The notes under the pieces were generated by a model. That model ran no database searches. It was not told where the DNA came from and saw nothing but the letters and a program-made list of their open reading frames with translations. 51,168 bases of DNA from Opitutia bacterium (GTDB lineage: Bacteria > Verrucomicrobiota > Verrucomicrobiia > Opitutales > Opitutaceae), in contig CANFSZ010000012.1 in assembly GCA_947449835.1 (NCBI GenBank), positions 1-51,168 on the forward strand, written 5' to 3'. Of the stretch, positions 22,089-26,074 are shown piece by piece (the first letter of the stretch is position 1; each line of letters starts with the position of its first letter). Position numbers and translations under genes: made by a program.

Positions 22089-23312
22089 ATGCCCTACACC
22101 GAAGACCGCTCCGCCTGGTATGAAGGCCAAGGCCTCTGGCAACATGTCCCCGCGAGCGACTGGAACGACTGGGTTTGGCAGCTCAAGAACCGCCTCACGA
22201 GCGTCGCTCAGCTCGAAGAGCACATGACGCTGACACCTGACGAGAAGGCCGGTTGCCTCTTCGCCAGCCACAAACTTGCGCTGGCGATCACGCCGTACTT
22301 TTTCAACCTCATCGATCGCAACGATCCGCAGTGTCCGATCCGCCAACAGGTGATTCCCCGGGGCGGCGAAGCGATTCTCAGCGATGAAGAGACGCTCGAT
22401 TCGCTCGGTGAAGACGAACATTCACCGGTCCCAGGCTTGGTCCACCGTTATCCGGACCGCGTGTTGTTTTTGGTGACGGATCGGTGCGCCGCATATTGCC
22501 GCTATTGCACGCGCAGCCGTCTGGTTTCCAACGCCCAGGATTACAATTTTCACGCTGAGCTTGAGCAAGGGCTGCGCTACATCGAAAACCATCCGGAAGT
22601 TCGAGATGTGCTGATTTCGGGCGGTGATCCATTGCTGCTCTCGGATAAAAAACTCGATCACTTGTTCGGGCGGTTGCGCGCAATCAAGCACGTGGAATTT
22701 ATCCGGATCGGCTCGCGCATCCCGGTGTTTTTGCCGCAGCGCATCACGCCGGAATTGTGCGAGATTTTCAAGAAACACGGGCCGATCTGGATGAGCATCC
22801 ACACCAATCACCCGAAGGAAGCCACCGCGGAGCTACGGGCCGCTTGCGAGCGCTTGTCGTTCGCTGGCGTACCGCTCGGCAACCAGACGGTTTTGCTCAA
22901 AGGCATCAACGACGACGTCGATGTCATGAAGGCGCTCATGCACCGCTTGTTGCGGATGCGGGTGCGGCCTTATTATATCTACCAGATGGATCTGATCACG
23001 GGCGGCGCGCACTTCAAAGTCGATGTGCGCAAAGGCATCGAAATCATCCGGGCCTTGCGCGGCCACACGACGGGTTACGCCGTGCCGCAGTACGTGATCG
23101 ATGCCCCGGGCGGCGGGGGCAAGGTTCCCATCAATCCCGACTACGTCGAAAAAATCACCGACACCGAGGTCGTGTTTCGTAATTACGAGGGCCAGCAATT
23201 TAGTTATCCGCTCACTCACACGCCGCGGCCGGCGGGAAATGAGGGCGAATTATCCGTCGTCGGTGCGCCTGAGTCATCCGCACCGCTCGCTCAGCCGATG
23301 TTTAAAGACTGA
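22089..23312 (+). CDS. KamA-family radical SAM aminomutase (lysine 2,3-aminomutase-like)
   Basis: 407 residues. The radical SAM cluster motif CAAYCRYC (Cys133, 137, 140) is intact, and DAPGGGGKVPI holds the Lys that binds pyridoxal phosphate. Compared with clostridial lysine 2,3-aminomutase, the substrate-binding Asp residues are kept (YQMDL and IDAPGG), which favours lysine over glutamate as substrate. The C-terminal cysteines that bind zinc in the clostridial enzyme are absent. KamA makes beta-lysine; the shorter EpmB relative makes beta-lysine for EF-P. No epmA or efp is in the window, and length and motifs fit KamA better. Beta-lysine could serve as an osmolyte or for EF-P. The tandem small RNAs begin shortly after the stop. 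Confidence 0.9.
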   Translation: MPYTEDRSAWYEGQGLWQHVPASDWNDWVWQLKNRLTSVAQLEEHMTLTPDEKAGCLFASHKLALAITPYFFNLIDRNDPQCPIRQQVIPRGGEAILSDEETLDSLGEDEHSPVPGLVHRYPDRVLFLVTDRCAAYCRYCTRSRLVSNAQDYNFHAELEQGLRYIENHPEVRDVLISGGDPLLLSDKKLDHLFGRLRAIKHVEFIRIGSRIPVFLPQRITPELCEIFKKHGPIWMSIHTNHPKEATAELRAACERLSFAGVPLGNQTVLLKGINDDVDVMKALMHRLLRMRVRPYYIYQMDLITGGAHFKVDVRKGIEIIRALRGHTTGYAVPQYVIDAPGGGGKVPINPDYVEKITDTEVVFRNYEGQQFSYPLTHTPRPAGNEGELSVVGAPESSAPLAQPMFKD

Positions 23313-23354: not shown

Positions 23355-23384
23355 TTGAGCGTTTTGCTCCGACCCGCATCTATC
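23355..23384 (+). promoter_or_regulatory. Promoter of small RNA 1
   Basis: TTGAGC (23355-23360), an 18-base spacer, then TCTATC (23379-23384). The same two boxes at the same spacing precede small RNA 2 although the spacer middle differs, which points to selection on the boxes. Start expected near 23391. Confidence 0.62.
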
Positions 23385-23390
23385 TCTTCG

Positions 23391-23496
23391 CAGTGAGCCA
23401 CGTCCTGGTAAGACGCTGGTGTTAGTAAGTTCTTAAGGTTTGCTTGGTGTTAGGTCACAAGAGCCGCCCCTTCATCGGGGCGGCTTTCGTGTTTTT
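23391..23496 (+). ncRNA. Putative small RNA, tandem copy 1
   Basis: About 106 nt between promoter-like boxes and an intrinsic terminator, with no credible reading frame. A 5' hairpin pairs CCACGTC (23398-23404) with GACGCTGG (23412-23419, one bulged C) around the loop CTGGTAA. A linker follows, then a 19-nt block identical to copy 2 (23437-23455, containing TTGCTTGGTGTTAGG), which is probably single-stranded. The 3' end is a 9-bp stem, loop TTCATC, then a T-tract. Compared with copy 2, loop and block are unchanged while stems and linker vary, as expected for a functional RNA. I do not recognise a known family. The ends are estimates from sequence. Confidence 0.68.
23462..23495 (+). terminator. 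Intrinsic terminator of small RNA 1
   Basis: AGCCGCCCC (23462-23470), loop TTCATC, GGGGCGGCT (23477-23485): a perfect 9-bp stem. TTCGTG and then TTTTT (to 23496) follow. Confidence 0.82.
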
Positions 23497-23547
23497 CAGA
23501 GGGCGATTTGGCGTAAAATAACGGCGCTCAATTTATTTTAGATTTTT

Positions 23548-23577
23548 TTGAGCGTTTTGATTTTTGGCGCATCTATC
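23548..23577 (+). promoter_or_regulatory. Promoter of small RNA 2
   Basis: TTGAGC (23548-23553), an 18-base spacer, TCTATC (23572-23577), identical boxes to promoter 1. An AT-rich stretch (AATTTATTTTAGATTTTTT) directly upstream could act as an UP element. Start expected near 23584. Confidence 0.62.
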
Positions 23578-23583
23578 TCCGCG

Positions 23584-23691
23584 TAGTCACCATCGTCCTG
23601 GTAAGACGATGCAGGTTAGTTGTTCTAAACGGTTTGCTTGGTGTTAGGTTACACGAGCCGCTCCTTCATCGGGGGCGGCTCTTGTGTTTTT
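23584..23691 (+). ncRNA. Putative small RNA, tandem copy 2
   Basis: About 108 nt, homologous to copy 1. The 5' hairpin is cleaner here: CATCGTC (23591-23597), loop CTGGTAA, GACGATG (23605-23611), seven perfect pairs that differ in sequence from copy 1 while keeping the fold and loop. A small TTAG/CTAA stem may form in the linker (23616-23628). The 19-nt conserved block is at 23631-23649. The terminator stem has a T where copy 1 has C, paired to G in both, so pairing is kept. Function and targets are unknown; a trans-acting antisense role through the conserved block is an inference. Confidence 0.68.
23655..23691 (+). terminator. Intrinsic terminator of small RNA 2
   Basis: GAGCCGCTCC (23655-23664) pairs with GGGGCGGCTC (23672-23681), including one T-G pair, across a seven-base loop. 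CTTGTG-type sequence and TTTTT to 23691 follow. Confidence 0.8.
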
Positions 23692-23758
23692 AGGTGGCTG
23701 GACGTGTTTTAAAGTTTTTCTTGCCAGCTGGCGCGGGACGCCGCTTTTTCCGCTTCGC

Positions 23759-23853
23759 CTGTAGGGGTGTCTTCCGCGGAAGACTGAGATTGCGGCGCGA
23801 TTCGGCCGCTGGACCCTTCGAACCTGAACGGATCATGCCGACGAAGGAAACAG
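23759..23853 (+). promoter_or_regulatory. TPP riboswitch aptamer (THI element)
   Basis: The thiamine-pyrophosphate aptamer consensus is readable throughout. P1 can form from CTGT (23759-23762) and ACAG (23850-23853). AGGGGTG opens P2, GTCTTCC/GGAAGAC forms P3, and the invariant CTGAGA is at 23784-23789. An optional GCGGC/GCCGC hairpin (23792-23809) follows, then ACCC closing P2, and the pyrophosphate-binding half AACCTGAACGGATCATGCCG with ACGAAGG. It senses TPP in the nascent message. A terminator begins three bases after P1, so repression is probably by premature termination when thiamine is plentiful. The regulated gene is the TonB-dependent receptor at 23936. Confidence 0.95.
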
Positions 23854-23854
23854 C

Positions 23855-23877
23855 AGGCGCGGATTGCGCCTTTTTTT
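23855..23877 (+). terminator. Riboswitch-controlled intrinsic terminator
   Basis: AGGCGC (23855-23860), loop GGATT, GCGCCT (23866-23871), then a run of T to 23877. It is directly downstream of the TPP aptamer and 59 bases before the receptor start, so it is the likely expression platform. Confidence 0.85.
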
Positions 23878-23935: not shown

Positions 23936-26074
23936 ATGAAACGTCCTGCCCGAATCCTCCTATCAATCATCGCAGCCTTGTCGGTGAGTGCTCTCGTCCA
24001 CGCGCAAGCGAACTCGCCCGCGGCTCCCGCGCCGACGGTCAAACTCGCTCCGGTGCTCGTCACCGCCGATCTCTGGGCCTCGCCGCTGGCAAAGTTGCCC
24101 GCGAGCGTCACGGTGTTTGACGATGCCACGCTGCAGGCCGGCGGCGTGCGGCACTTCGGCGATTTGGTGGATCAAATCTCTAACCTCACGTGGACGGGCG
24201 GCACTTCGCGGCCCCGTTATTTCCAAATCCGCGGCATCGGCGAAAATTCCCAATACGAAGGCGAAACTCCCGATTCCGCCGTGCGCTTCATGGTCGACGA
24301 CATGGATTTCACCGGTCTCGGCACGCTCGGCGGCACGTTCGATGTGAGCCAAGTCGAGGTGTTGCGTGGGCCGCAGGCCGGGGCCTTTGGCGCCAACGCC
24401 GCGGGCGGCGTCGTCCGCCTCGTGACCAACGCCCCGACTCCGTTCTGGACAGGCCGCGTCGAGACCAACGCCGGCCAAGACGCCTTGCGCGAAGGCGGTT
24501 TCGCCCTCGGCGGGCCGCTCGTCGCCGCCAACCCCGAGCGCTTCATGTTGCGTCTCGCCGTGCACCAAAGCCGCAGCGACGGCTTTCGCCACAACGTCAC
24601 CCTCAACCGCGACACCAACGCCCGCGACGAATTCACCGCGCGCCTGCGCTTCACCGCCGTGCTCTCGCCCGCCTGGCGCTGGGAAGGAGCCGTTTTGTTT
24701 TCGGATGTGAACAACGGGTTCGATGAATTTGCGCTCGATAACAACGGCCGCCGCACCTTTAGTGACCAACCCGGCCGCGATCAGCAACGTTCCACCGCCG
24801 CCAGCCTTCGTGGCACCTACGCAGGTCTGGCCGGCGCGCGTCTCACATCGATCACCGGCGGCAGTCGCGTGAAATCCGTTTACTCCTACGACGACGATTG
24901 GACTGCCGCTTCGTATGAGGGCTTCAGCGATCTCCGGCGTACGCGCTCGGTCTTCAACCAAGAACTTCGCCTCGATTCTACCGCCACGCGCGCCGCGCTC
25001 GGCTGGATCGATCGTTGGACGCTCGGCGCATTTTTTTCCAACACCGATGAAAATAGCTCCTATATTAATAAAGATCCCTATGACGTCCGCGGTCTCAGAA
25101 CCCGTTACAACGCCGACAATTTCGCGCTCTTCGGTCAGATCGCGCACGATCTCGCGGCGCACACACGCTTGCTCGTCGGTCTCCGCACCGAGCGTGTGAA
25201 CCTCGACGGTCGCGGCACCAAGACCCGCTATCGCGCCGCGCGCAACTCTTACGATCCGGAAGTCACGTTCCGTCCTGCTTTTGACGACACGCTCCTCGGC
25301 GGCAAGATGACCCTCGAGCACGATCTCACGTCCGCCGTGCTCACGTTTGCCTCGGTCACGCGCGGCTACAAGGCCGGCGGCATCAACATCGACGCTCGCA
25401 TCAGCCCGCCCGCCGATCCGCTCACTTACGGCACCGAGCAACTCTGGAACTACGAAGCCGGCTTCCGCGGCAATGCGCTCGACCACCGGCTCACGGGGGA
25501 AATCACCGCGTTTTATCTCGATCGGGCCGACACGCAGGTGCGCGACTCCGCCGGCTTCGGCGGCAACTATCGCTTTTTCACCGCCAACGGCCGTAGCGCT
25601 CATGTCACCGGTTACGAGGCTGCCGCGAGCTACGCGGTCACGCCGGCGTGGTCGTTCCGCGGCACGCTCGCGCAGATGAGTTCGCAGCTCGATCCGTTTA
25701 AACTCACCAACGGCAACACCGGCGGCGGCCGCAGCCTCGCGAATACCCCGCGCTACGGCTACACGCTCGGCACGGATTTCCGCCGCGCAGCTACGGCTGG
25801 AGTTTTTGCCCACGCTGAGATCGTGGGTCGCGCCACGCAGTTCGACTCCAATAACCAGAACGAGGCTCGTCGCGCCTTCCATCTCTACAACGCCAGCTTC
25901 GGCTACGCGTGGCAGCAATGGACGTTTACCGTGTGGGGCAAAAATCTGCTCAACACGCGCTACGAGAAACGCGTGTTCTTCTTCGGCAACGCCGATCCCG
26001 ATTACATCGAGACGCGCTACGAAGACCGCGCCGATCCACGCCAACTCGGCGTGAGCGCTTCGTATCGCTTCTGA
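23936..26074 (+). CDS. TonB-dependent receptor, probable thiamine transporter
   Basis: 712 residues from ATG 23936 (an upstream in-frame ATG at 23864 lies inside the terminator and is unlikely). The signal peptide ends near ALVHA (23). A TonB-box-like segment (LAPVLVTA) follows. The plug domain includes YFQIRGIGENSQYEG and VEVLRGPQAGAFGANAAGGVVRLVT. The rest is the 22-strand barrel, ending GVSASYRF with the terminal Phe needed for outer-membrane insertion. The barrel cannot show the ligand; the assignment rests on the TPP riboswitch and terminator in its leader. THI-regulated TonB receptors are known from Bacteroidetes and some proteobacteria. No inner-membrane thiamine permease or thi gene is adjacent. 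Confidence 0.9.
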   Translation: MKRPARILLSIIAALSVSALVHAQANSPAAPAPTVKLAPVLVTADLWASPLAKLPASVTVFDDATLQAGGVRHFGDLVDQISNLTWTGGTSRPRYFQIRGIGENSQYEGETPDSAVRFMVDDMDFTGLGTLGGTFDVSQVEVLRGPQAGAFGANAAGGVVRLVTNAPTPFWTGRVETNAGQDALREGGFALGGPLVAANPERFMLRLAVHQSRSDGFRHNVTLNRDTNARDEFTARLRFTAVLSPAWRWEGAVLFSDVNNGFDEFALDNNGRRTFSDQPGRDQQRSTAASLRGTYAGLAGARLTSITGGSRVKSVYSYDDDWTAASYEGFSDLRRTRSVFNQELRLDSTATRAALGWIDRWTLGAFFSNTDENSSYINKDPYDVRGLRTRYNADNFALFGQIAHDLAAHTRLLVGLRTERVNLDGRGTKTRYRAARNSYDPEVTFRPAFDDTLLGGKMTLEHDLTSAVLTFASVTRGYKAGGINIDARISPPADPLTYGTEQLWNYEAGFRGNALDHRLTGEITAFYLDRADTQVRDSAGFGGNYRFFTANGRSAHVTGYEAAASYAVTPAWSFRGTLAQMSSQLDPFKLTNGNTGGGRSLANTPRYGYTLGTDFRRAATAGVFAHAEIVGRATQFDSNNQNEARRAFHLYNASFGYAWQQWTFTVWGKNLLNTRYEKRVFFFGNADPDYIETRYEDRADPRQLGVSASYRF

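Follow-up and report, generated by a model that had tools for sequence, protein, structure and literature searches.

A tandem pair of sRNA-like units downstream of kamA

The window analysed here is a 51,168 nt stretch of an Opitutaceae contig (CANFSZ010000012.1). Between a lysine 2,3-aminomutase-like radical SAM gene (kamA) and the gene for a TonB-dependent receptor it carries two similar units, and the question is whether these are genes for a functional family of small RNAs (sRNAs) and, if so, what might transcribe them and what they might act on. A preliminary description had read them as a tandem pair of sRNAs repeated with a period of 193 bases, each with its own promoter and terminator. 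Most of the elements it named are present as described: TTGAGC-N18-TCTATC occurs twice, the measured period is 193 nt (194 nt at the conserved block), and both copies contain the loop CTGGTAA, the identical 19-mer GGTTTGCTTGGTGTTAGGT and a GC stem followed by a T-tract. The C-to-T change in the second terminator keeps its pairing, as a G-U pair (Table 1). The two copies are 81% identical over 147–149 nt and, with an E-value of 1.7e-31 in a search within the genome, this likeness is not due to chance. Both fold better than shuffled sequences (z −2.54 for copy 1 and −3.22 for copy 2). The 5' hairpin that had been claimed for both copies holds as a covarying helix of the family, but the stem of copy 1 is bulged and the minimum-energy fold of that copy lacks the hairpin, which in copy 1 therefore rests on family covariation. 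The TPP riboswitch before the TonB-dependent receptor suggests that this receptor serves thiamine-related uptake across the outer membrane.

Table 1. Features of the sRNA locus, in positions of the window
Feature	Position	Strand	Basis or remark
kamA, lysine 2,3-aminomutase-like radical SAM gene, 5' neighbour	22089..23312	+	frequent upstream neighbour of the sRNA family
Putative promoter, copy 1: TTGAGCG-N14-GCATCTATC (GAGC-N16-CATC)	23355..23384	+	same layout by regular expression in 138 of 156 distinct copies
Predicted sRNA copy 1, long form	23389..23496 (ends approximate)	+	covariance-model match 23422-23494, E 1.4e-18; start placed from the promoter
5' hairpin, copy 1: loop CTGGTAA at 23405-23411, one bulge	23398..23419	+	sequence; family covariation (alignment A2)
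Nearly invariant block GGTTTGCTTGGTGTTAGGT, copy 1; proposed pairing region	23437..23455	+	family comparison
Intrinsic terminator, copy 1: stem 23460-23487, then T-tract	23460..23496	+	terminator scan; covarying helix 2
Putative promoter, copy 2: TTGAGCG-N14-GCATCTATC	23548..23577	+	promoter-pattern match
Predicted sRNA copy 2, long form	23582..23691 (ends approximate)	+	covariance-model match 23616-23689, E 6.6e-16; fold z −3.22
5' hairpin, copy 2: loop CTGGTAA at 23598-23604	23591..23611	+	predicted fold; family covariation
Nearly invariant block GGTTTGCTTGGTGTTAGGT, copy 2	23631..23649	+	family comparison
Intrinsic terminator, copy 2: stem 23655-23681, then T-tract; T-G pair in place of C-G	23655..23691	+	
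TPP riboswitch of the next gene	23753..23866	+	RF00059, 61.9 bits, cut-off 54.3
TonB-dependent receptor, 3' neighbour	23936..26074	+	

The units belong to a family conserved in Opitutaceae

With copy 2 as the query, blastn found homologues in 30 of 57 genomes. Each of these is one of the 37 genomes of the window's family (its own included), and there was no homologue among 20 genomes from other families of the order. An exact scan of the GTDB collection for GGTTTGYTTGGTGTTAGGT gave at least 117 stretches. Among the matches listed, 79 of 80 titles name Verrucomicrobia, Opitutia, Opitutales, Opitutaceae or a genus of Opitutaceae (Ereboglobus was checked as such; Opitutus, Lacunisphaera, Rariglobus and Synoicihabitans we take to be others), and the remaining title is a Zixiibacteriota contig in which the match has no promoter.

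The preliminary description had proposed a covariance-model search for homologues. We built such a model from the block and the terminator (R1; the model and its alignment, A4, were built from 44 of 47 sequences), and at E ≤0.001 it matches 192 of 250 sampled genomes from the window's family, about three quarters, with 1–5 matches in each matching genome listed. Among 387 genomes of the phylum there are matches in 42, of which 30 belong to the family and 12 do not. The 12 are weak (E 1.7e-5 or weaker); seven of them were read, and six have no such promoter. Only G420, from another family of the same order, has the promoter, and there it precedes a tandem pair.

In the window's family the unit is mostly not paired. 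The description as a tandem pair is right for this locus, but a third, shorter copy is found elsewhere in the same genome (G000:C25:7255-7333), convergent with a tRNA gene, and only 26 of 129 arrays hold two tandem copies (the Zixiibacteriota match, L106, was left out of this count). There are two forms. The long form, of about 105 nt, has the hairpin between GUAGUC and GUAGUUC. The short form, with a predicted length of about 65 nt, is seen in 15 of the 29 non-redundant copies whose leader is shorter (alignment A3): these have no more than 21 nt between the −10 element and the block, no hairpin and, in all 15, a terminator loop AGGGG, which is possibly a second functional site. Examples of the shortest form are L003:1454-1535 (minus strand), L060, L051 and L078.

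Comparison of the copies shows that the predicted sRNAs share a promoter motif, a covarying 5' hairpin (in the long form), the block GGUUUGCUUGGUGUUAGGU, which is nearly invariant across the family over 18–19 nt, and a covarying terminator. As judged from these alignments, the units appear to form an undescribed, strongly conserved sRNA family of Opitutaceae, of a kind that is known, in which the lineage, the promoter and the block are new. The earlier reading of a functional RNA family maintained after duplication thus has the support, at the sequence level, of homologues with covarying stems.

Covariation of the two helices

The covariation was measured on 53 of the 56 non-redundant long copies (alignment A2). 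Two-sided changes occur at all seven pairs of the 5' helix and at seven of the ten terminator pairs; 87.4% of cells are paired compared with 78.0% in shuffled alignments, none of 500 of which reached the observed value. The covariation score is 0.419, compared with 0.253 after shuffling and 0.098–0.192 for slid versions of the structure, and kinship among the copies inflates such scores. RNAalifold run on this alignment did not itself recover the 5' helix, which was named from copy 2. The block is only partly unpaired in the predicted folds of the long form (unpaired probability 0.28–0.69).

No Rfam family reached its gathering threshold at the sRNA copies or at related sRNAs in 12 loci, in agreement with the earlier statement that the units match no known family. 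Six sub-threshold matches seen at a permissive E-value were taken as chance. The one with the lowest E, RF02634 (EF3314_EF3315), scored 21.8 bits where the cut-off is 100 (E 0.007 for 446 bases searched); it resembles the units in that a U-rich stretch comes after a stem, and it too was taken as chance.

A promoter of ECF-like layout precedes several sRNA-like units

The promoter that had been assigned to each copy is a conserved motif, but it does not read as a sigma-70-like promoter. Its consensus over the family is TTGARCG-N14-GCRTCTATC, with the layout GARC-N16-CRTC. A regular expression called it in 138 of 156 distinct copies, with a spacer of 14 in 130 of the 138, and left 18 of the 156 without a call. 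The two elements, TT(G/C)A(A/G)C(G/A) and (G/C)C(G/A)TCT(A/T)TC, are nearly invariant, some of their positions being fixed by the expression itself. Promoters of ECF sigma factors have a GAAC-like −35 element and a CGTC-like −10 element about 16 nt apart. Set against this general consensus, the putative sRNA promoter reads as ECF-type by its layout, and would place the start of the sRNA about 5–8 nt 3' of CGTCTATC.

We searched 16 genomes for the promoter pattern at fixed spacing. With up to three mismatches there were 49 rows, compared with 17 for the reversed control. Each of the 17 rows with no more than two mismatches stands before an sRNA gene; 13 of these genes belong to this family, which supplied the pattern, and four do not (three are of a second sRNA family and one, in G017, is without the block). 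At least four of the 32 rows at three mismatches are sRNAs; the others are coding or were not placed. Another search with the promoter pattern gave 38 rows, of which 26 are sRNA genes or sRNA-like; the other 12, four of which were read, are unassigned. Among 33 genomes from outside the family there were ten rows at zero or one mismatch; nine were read and four are sRNA-like (one each in G047 and G412, two in G420), and there is a further sRNA-like unit with the promoter in G039. Short terminator-ended units following this promoter in other families can be seen at L175 (the unit in G039), L406, L408 and L409/L431, in G420 as a tandem pair. One type of promoter thus stands before a number of unrelated sRNA-like units, both in the window's family and in four further families of its order.

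The second family, GUUAGUUACCCGUUCUUUUU...AAGUCGGCAAGGGCGC, sits before a gene for an rsmE-like RNA methyltransferase, an identity that Pfam confirms for both of the two proteins tested. As judged by eye from the N-terminus, the gene is 3' of the unit in eight of the 11 new loci listed and in L185-L189. As a blastn query the second family matched 26 of 80 genomes of the window's family at E 0.01, and weaker matches cover terminator-sized stretches only. It could be an sRNA or a leader of rsmE. Its loci include L186:2330-2465 (minus strand), L188, L189 and L391-L402, mostly directly before the rsmE-like gene.

None of the promoter matches read, which are a subset of all matches, precedes an ECF sigma factor gene, so that the assignment to an ECF sigma factor is a guess. 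We tentatively consider, as a possibility that is on balance doubtful, that Opitutales have an ECF-type regulon made up almost wholly of sRNAs, in which GARC-N16-CRTC would drive several unrelated sRNA families and few or no protein genes. This regulon would cover the long and short forms of the window's family, the rsmE-linked family and the sRNA-like units of four further families in the order. An ECF promoter used chiefly for sRNAs would, if that is what this one is, add a separate example of the 'non-coding arm' of a stress response.

Candidate targets of the conserved block

Hfq was found in none of 29 genomes, the window's own included; 20 of the 29 are at least 90% complete and no more than 5% contaminated, and the control search was positive in five of 14 named genomes. 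In the same 29 genomes, the complement of the block gave 73 rows with up to three mismatches, 39 of which are sRNA genes (two of these, in G007 and G010, were assigned by sequence alone). Nine or ten rows come from a repeat in G013, at sites with ACCTACCACCGA(C/T)CAAAC, which carries a near-complement of the block and is probably unrelated. The only non-sRNA row with no more than two mismatches is a site at a gene for a DUF11 protein; about 0.004 such matches would be expected in all 29 genomes (an estimate that takes the bases as uniform). There is no mRNA site with two mismatches or fewer in the window's genus.

The site, TCCTAACACCAAGTAAAC, is 16–33 nt before the ATG of the DUF11 gene in G014 and in G082, both of one genus. 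The protein of G014 has 560 aa, DUF11 domains and a sub-threshold similarity to Chlamydia OMP6; that of G082 is 94% identical, and the site is kept. The predicted duplex has 23 pairs, one of them a wobble, and a bulge of 3 nt; its energy is −37.1 kcal/mol for the block, and none of 1000 mononucleotide shuffles was as good. Homologues with 54–55% identity in G077 and G107, which also bear the sRNA, have TAACACCAA across the start codon, a weaker site in a different genus; the duplex in G077 is unexceptional (53 of 1000 shuffles as good). The site is missing in six matches from G017 and G084, where R1 finds no sRNA and where two start codons are uncertain, and in four paralogues in sRNA-bearing genomes (L338-L341); L335 was left out of this comparison of start regions. 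The DUF11 protein is itself rare, with a match at E 1e-40 in only seven of 80 genomes, and the window's genome is not among them. On this evidence from base pairing and conservation, the DUF11 gene, which is of envelope type, is the best candidate for a predicted target. The site could instead be a leftover piece of an sRNA gene in antisense orientation.

Further sites in start regions are at genes for ExbD/TolR, HSP90, two TonB receptors, a Band-7 protein, a vWA protein, one unknown protein and a possible outer-membrane barrel below the Pfam cut-off, and, as recognised by eye, at those for ribosomal proteins S13 and L18. Words complementary to the block are not enriched in 790 start regions when these are compared with shuffles (6-mers, 80 vs 78.7; 7-mers, 13 vs 18.9; 8-mers, 2 vs 4.7). 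The pattern TAACACCAAN{0,30}ATG gave 48 rows in 11 genomes and its reverse 13, a difference that we do not use as evidence of enrichment because many of the rows read fall inside ORFs. The neighbouring gene kamA was rejected as a target, since the best match among the start regions listed has six mismatches in 18.

A model of sRNA action and its relation to known systems

We give about even chances to a model in which the units encode sRNAs that act in trans, independently of Hfq, within an alternative-sigma regulon, with transcription, sigma factor and targets all as predicted. An alternative sigma factor of ECF type would transcribe these sRNAs, together with the other sRNAs that have the same promoter, in response to stress or to a signal from the envelope. 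The block would then act as the seed that pairs with the start regions of certain mRNAs, those of envelope proteins among them, and blocks their translation, and it would do so without Hfq. Several copies per genome would supply dosage or differing expression of the same seed. In this way the sRNAs may fine-tune the synthesis of cell-envelope proteins.

There are experimental systems with which this model can be compared. RybB and MicA are sigma-E-dependent sRNAs of enterobacteria (PMC1804206). The likeness is that several sRNAs appear to share one ECF-type promoter and that candidate envelope targets are met at the start region; the differences are that the seed proposed here is internal and precedes the terminator, that Hfq was not found in the 29 genomes, that there is no Rfam match and that the targets are predicted. 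FoxI and FoxJ of Fusobacterium nucleatum, a species said to lack both Hfq and ProQ, are sigma-E-dependent sRNAs that repress an abundant envelope protein, and their promoter boxes have been aligned with the rpoE promoter (PMC11005410). Their seeds are C-rich, in contrast with the block GGUUUGCUUGGUGUUAGGU, and they come from another phylum. They are known from experiments and the present family from its sequences, and here none of the promoter matches read belongs to an ECF gene. We propose that both pairs are functional analogues of the family rather than homologues. Among the papers listed in literature searches none deals with regulatory sRNAs in Opitutaceae or with this sRNA family, which offers a way into the study of post-transcriptional control in a lineage in which no Hfq was found.

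Alternative explanations

Rather than pairing with mRNAs, the block could be the binding site of a protein, and the sRNAs would titrate or scaffold an RNA-binding protein by a logic like that of CsrB or 6S, with mRNA pairing incidental. We regard this as the less probable reading, though one with real weight. It would fit a block of 18–19 nt that is kept throughout the family with no widespread mRNA complement seen, the presence of several copies per genome, and the finding of no Hfq in 29 genomes, which means that another protein may be the partner. The words GTTTG and TAGTT, which are common to other sRNAs with the same promoter, would fit it too, but GTTTG, found in six of seven sRNAs with none of 1000 shuffles as high, competes with up to 1024 words, and TAGTT is strong with the chosen sequences but not robust among all 5-mers (raw P 0.013). 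Against protein binding, no motif of a known sponge was recognised in the sRNAs, and the 23-pair site of G014 and G082, missing in relatives without the sRNA, points to pairing. The weights that we give to pairing and to protein binding reflect the lack of enrichment in the 790 start regions, the unremarkable duplex of G077 and the fact that the block is only partly unpaired.

Each unit ends in a terminator and the next gene of the window is on the same strand, so that the units might be read as cis-acting terminator or attenuator leaders of that gene; the separate second family, which precedes the rsmE-like gene in most loci read, makes such an arrangement conceivable. For the present family, this explanation is very improbable and largely refuted. 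Upstream, kamA is found in 61 of 129 arrays (52 directly and nine through an ORF antisense to kamA), and in these kamA arrays the next ORF may be on either strand (30 plus and 22 minus, or 26 and 20 where kamA was called directly, the strands being rough in GC-rich DNA), which speaks against a leader function for the sRNA. The flanking ORFs of the 129 arrays fall into 110 clusters, a TonB receptor is downstream in 27, and in the window the receptor has its own TPP riboswitch between it and the sRNAs. That tandem and dispersed copies with promoter-like and terminator-like ends are a mobile or repeat element is more improbable still: the matching genomes listed have no more than 1–5 matches each, their position by kamA is frequent, the helices covary, and collections of plasmids (72,556 records) and phages (50,697 records) contain no match to the sRNA. 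It is also improbable, but not to that degree, that these are ordinary sigma-70-driven sRNAs and that the likeness of their promoters is merely conserved upstream sequence. The TTGA of the −35 element agrees with TTGACA and the spacer is compatible, but base counts over the family promoters give no TATAAT-like box in the −10 region, and the motif recurs before unrelated sRNAs, those of other families included. A sigma-70 scan gave no sites, a result that is weak by itself because only 0.2 are expected in shuffles. TTGACA is kept in 69 of 70 distinct upstream regions of kamA and in none of the 138 called sRNA promoters at −35; it occurs anywhere within 115 nt 5' of the block in three of 156 copies. 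Many of the kamA upstream regions also have a near-palindrome, GGTTAGGCGCCTAA, after TTGACA (for example L002:150-240), and this may be an operator.
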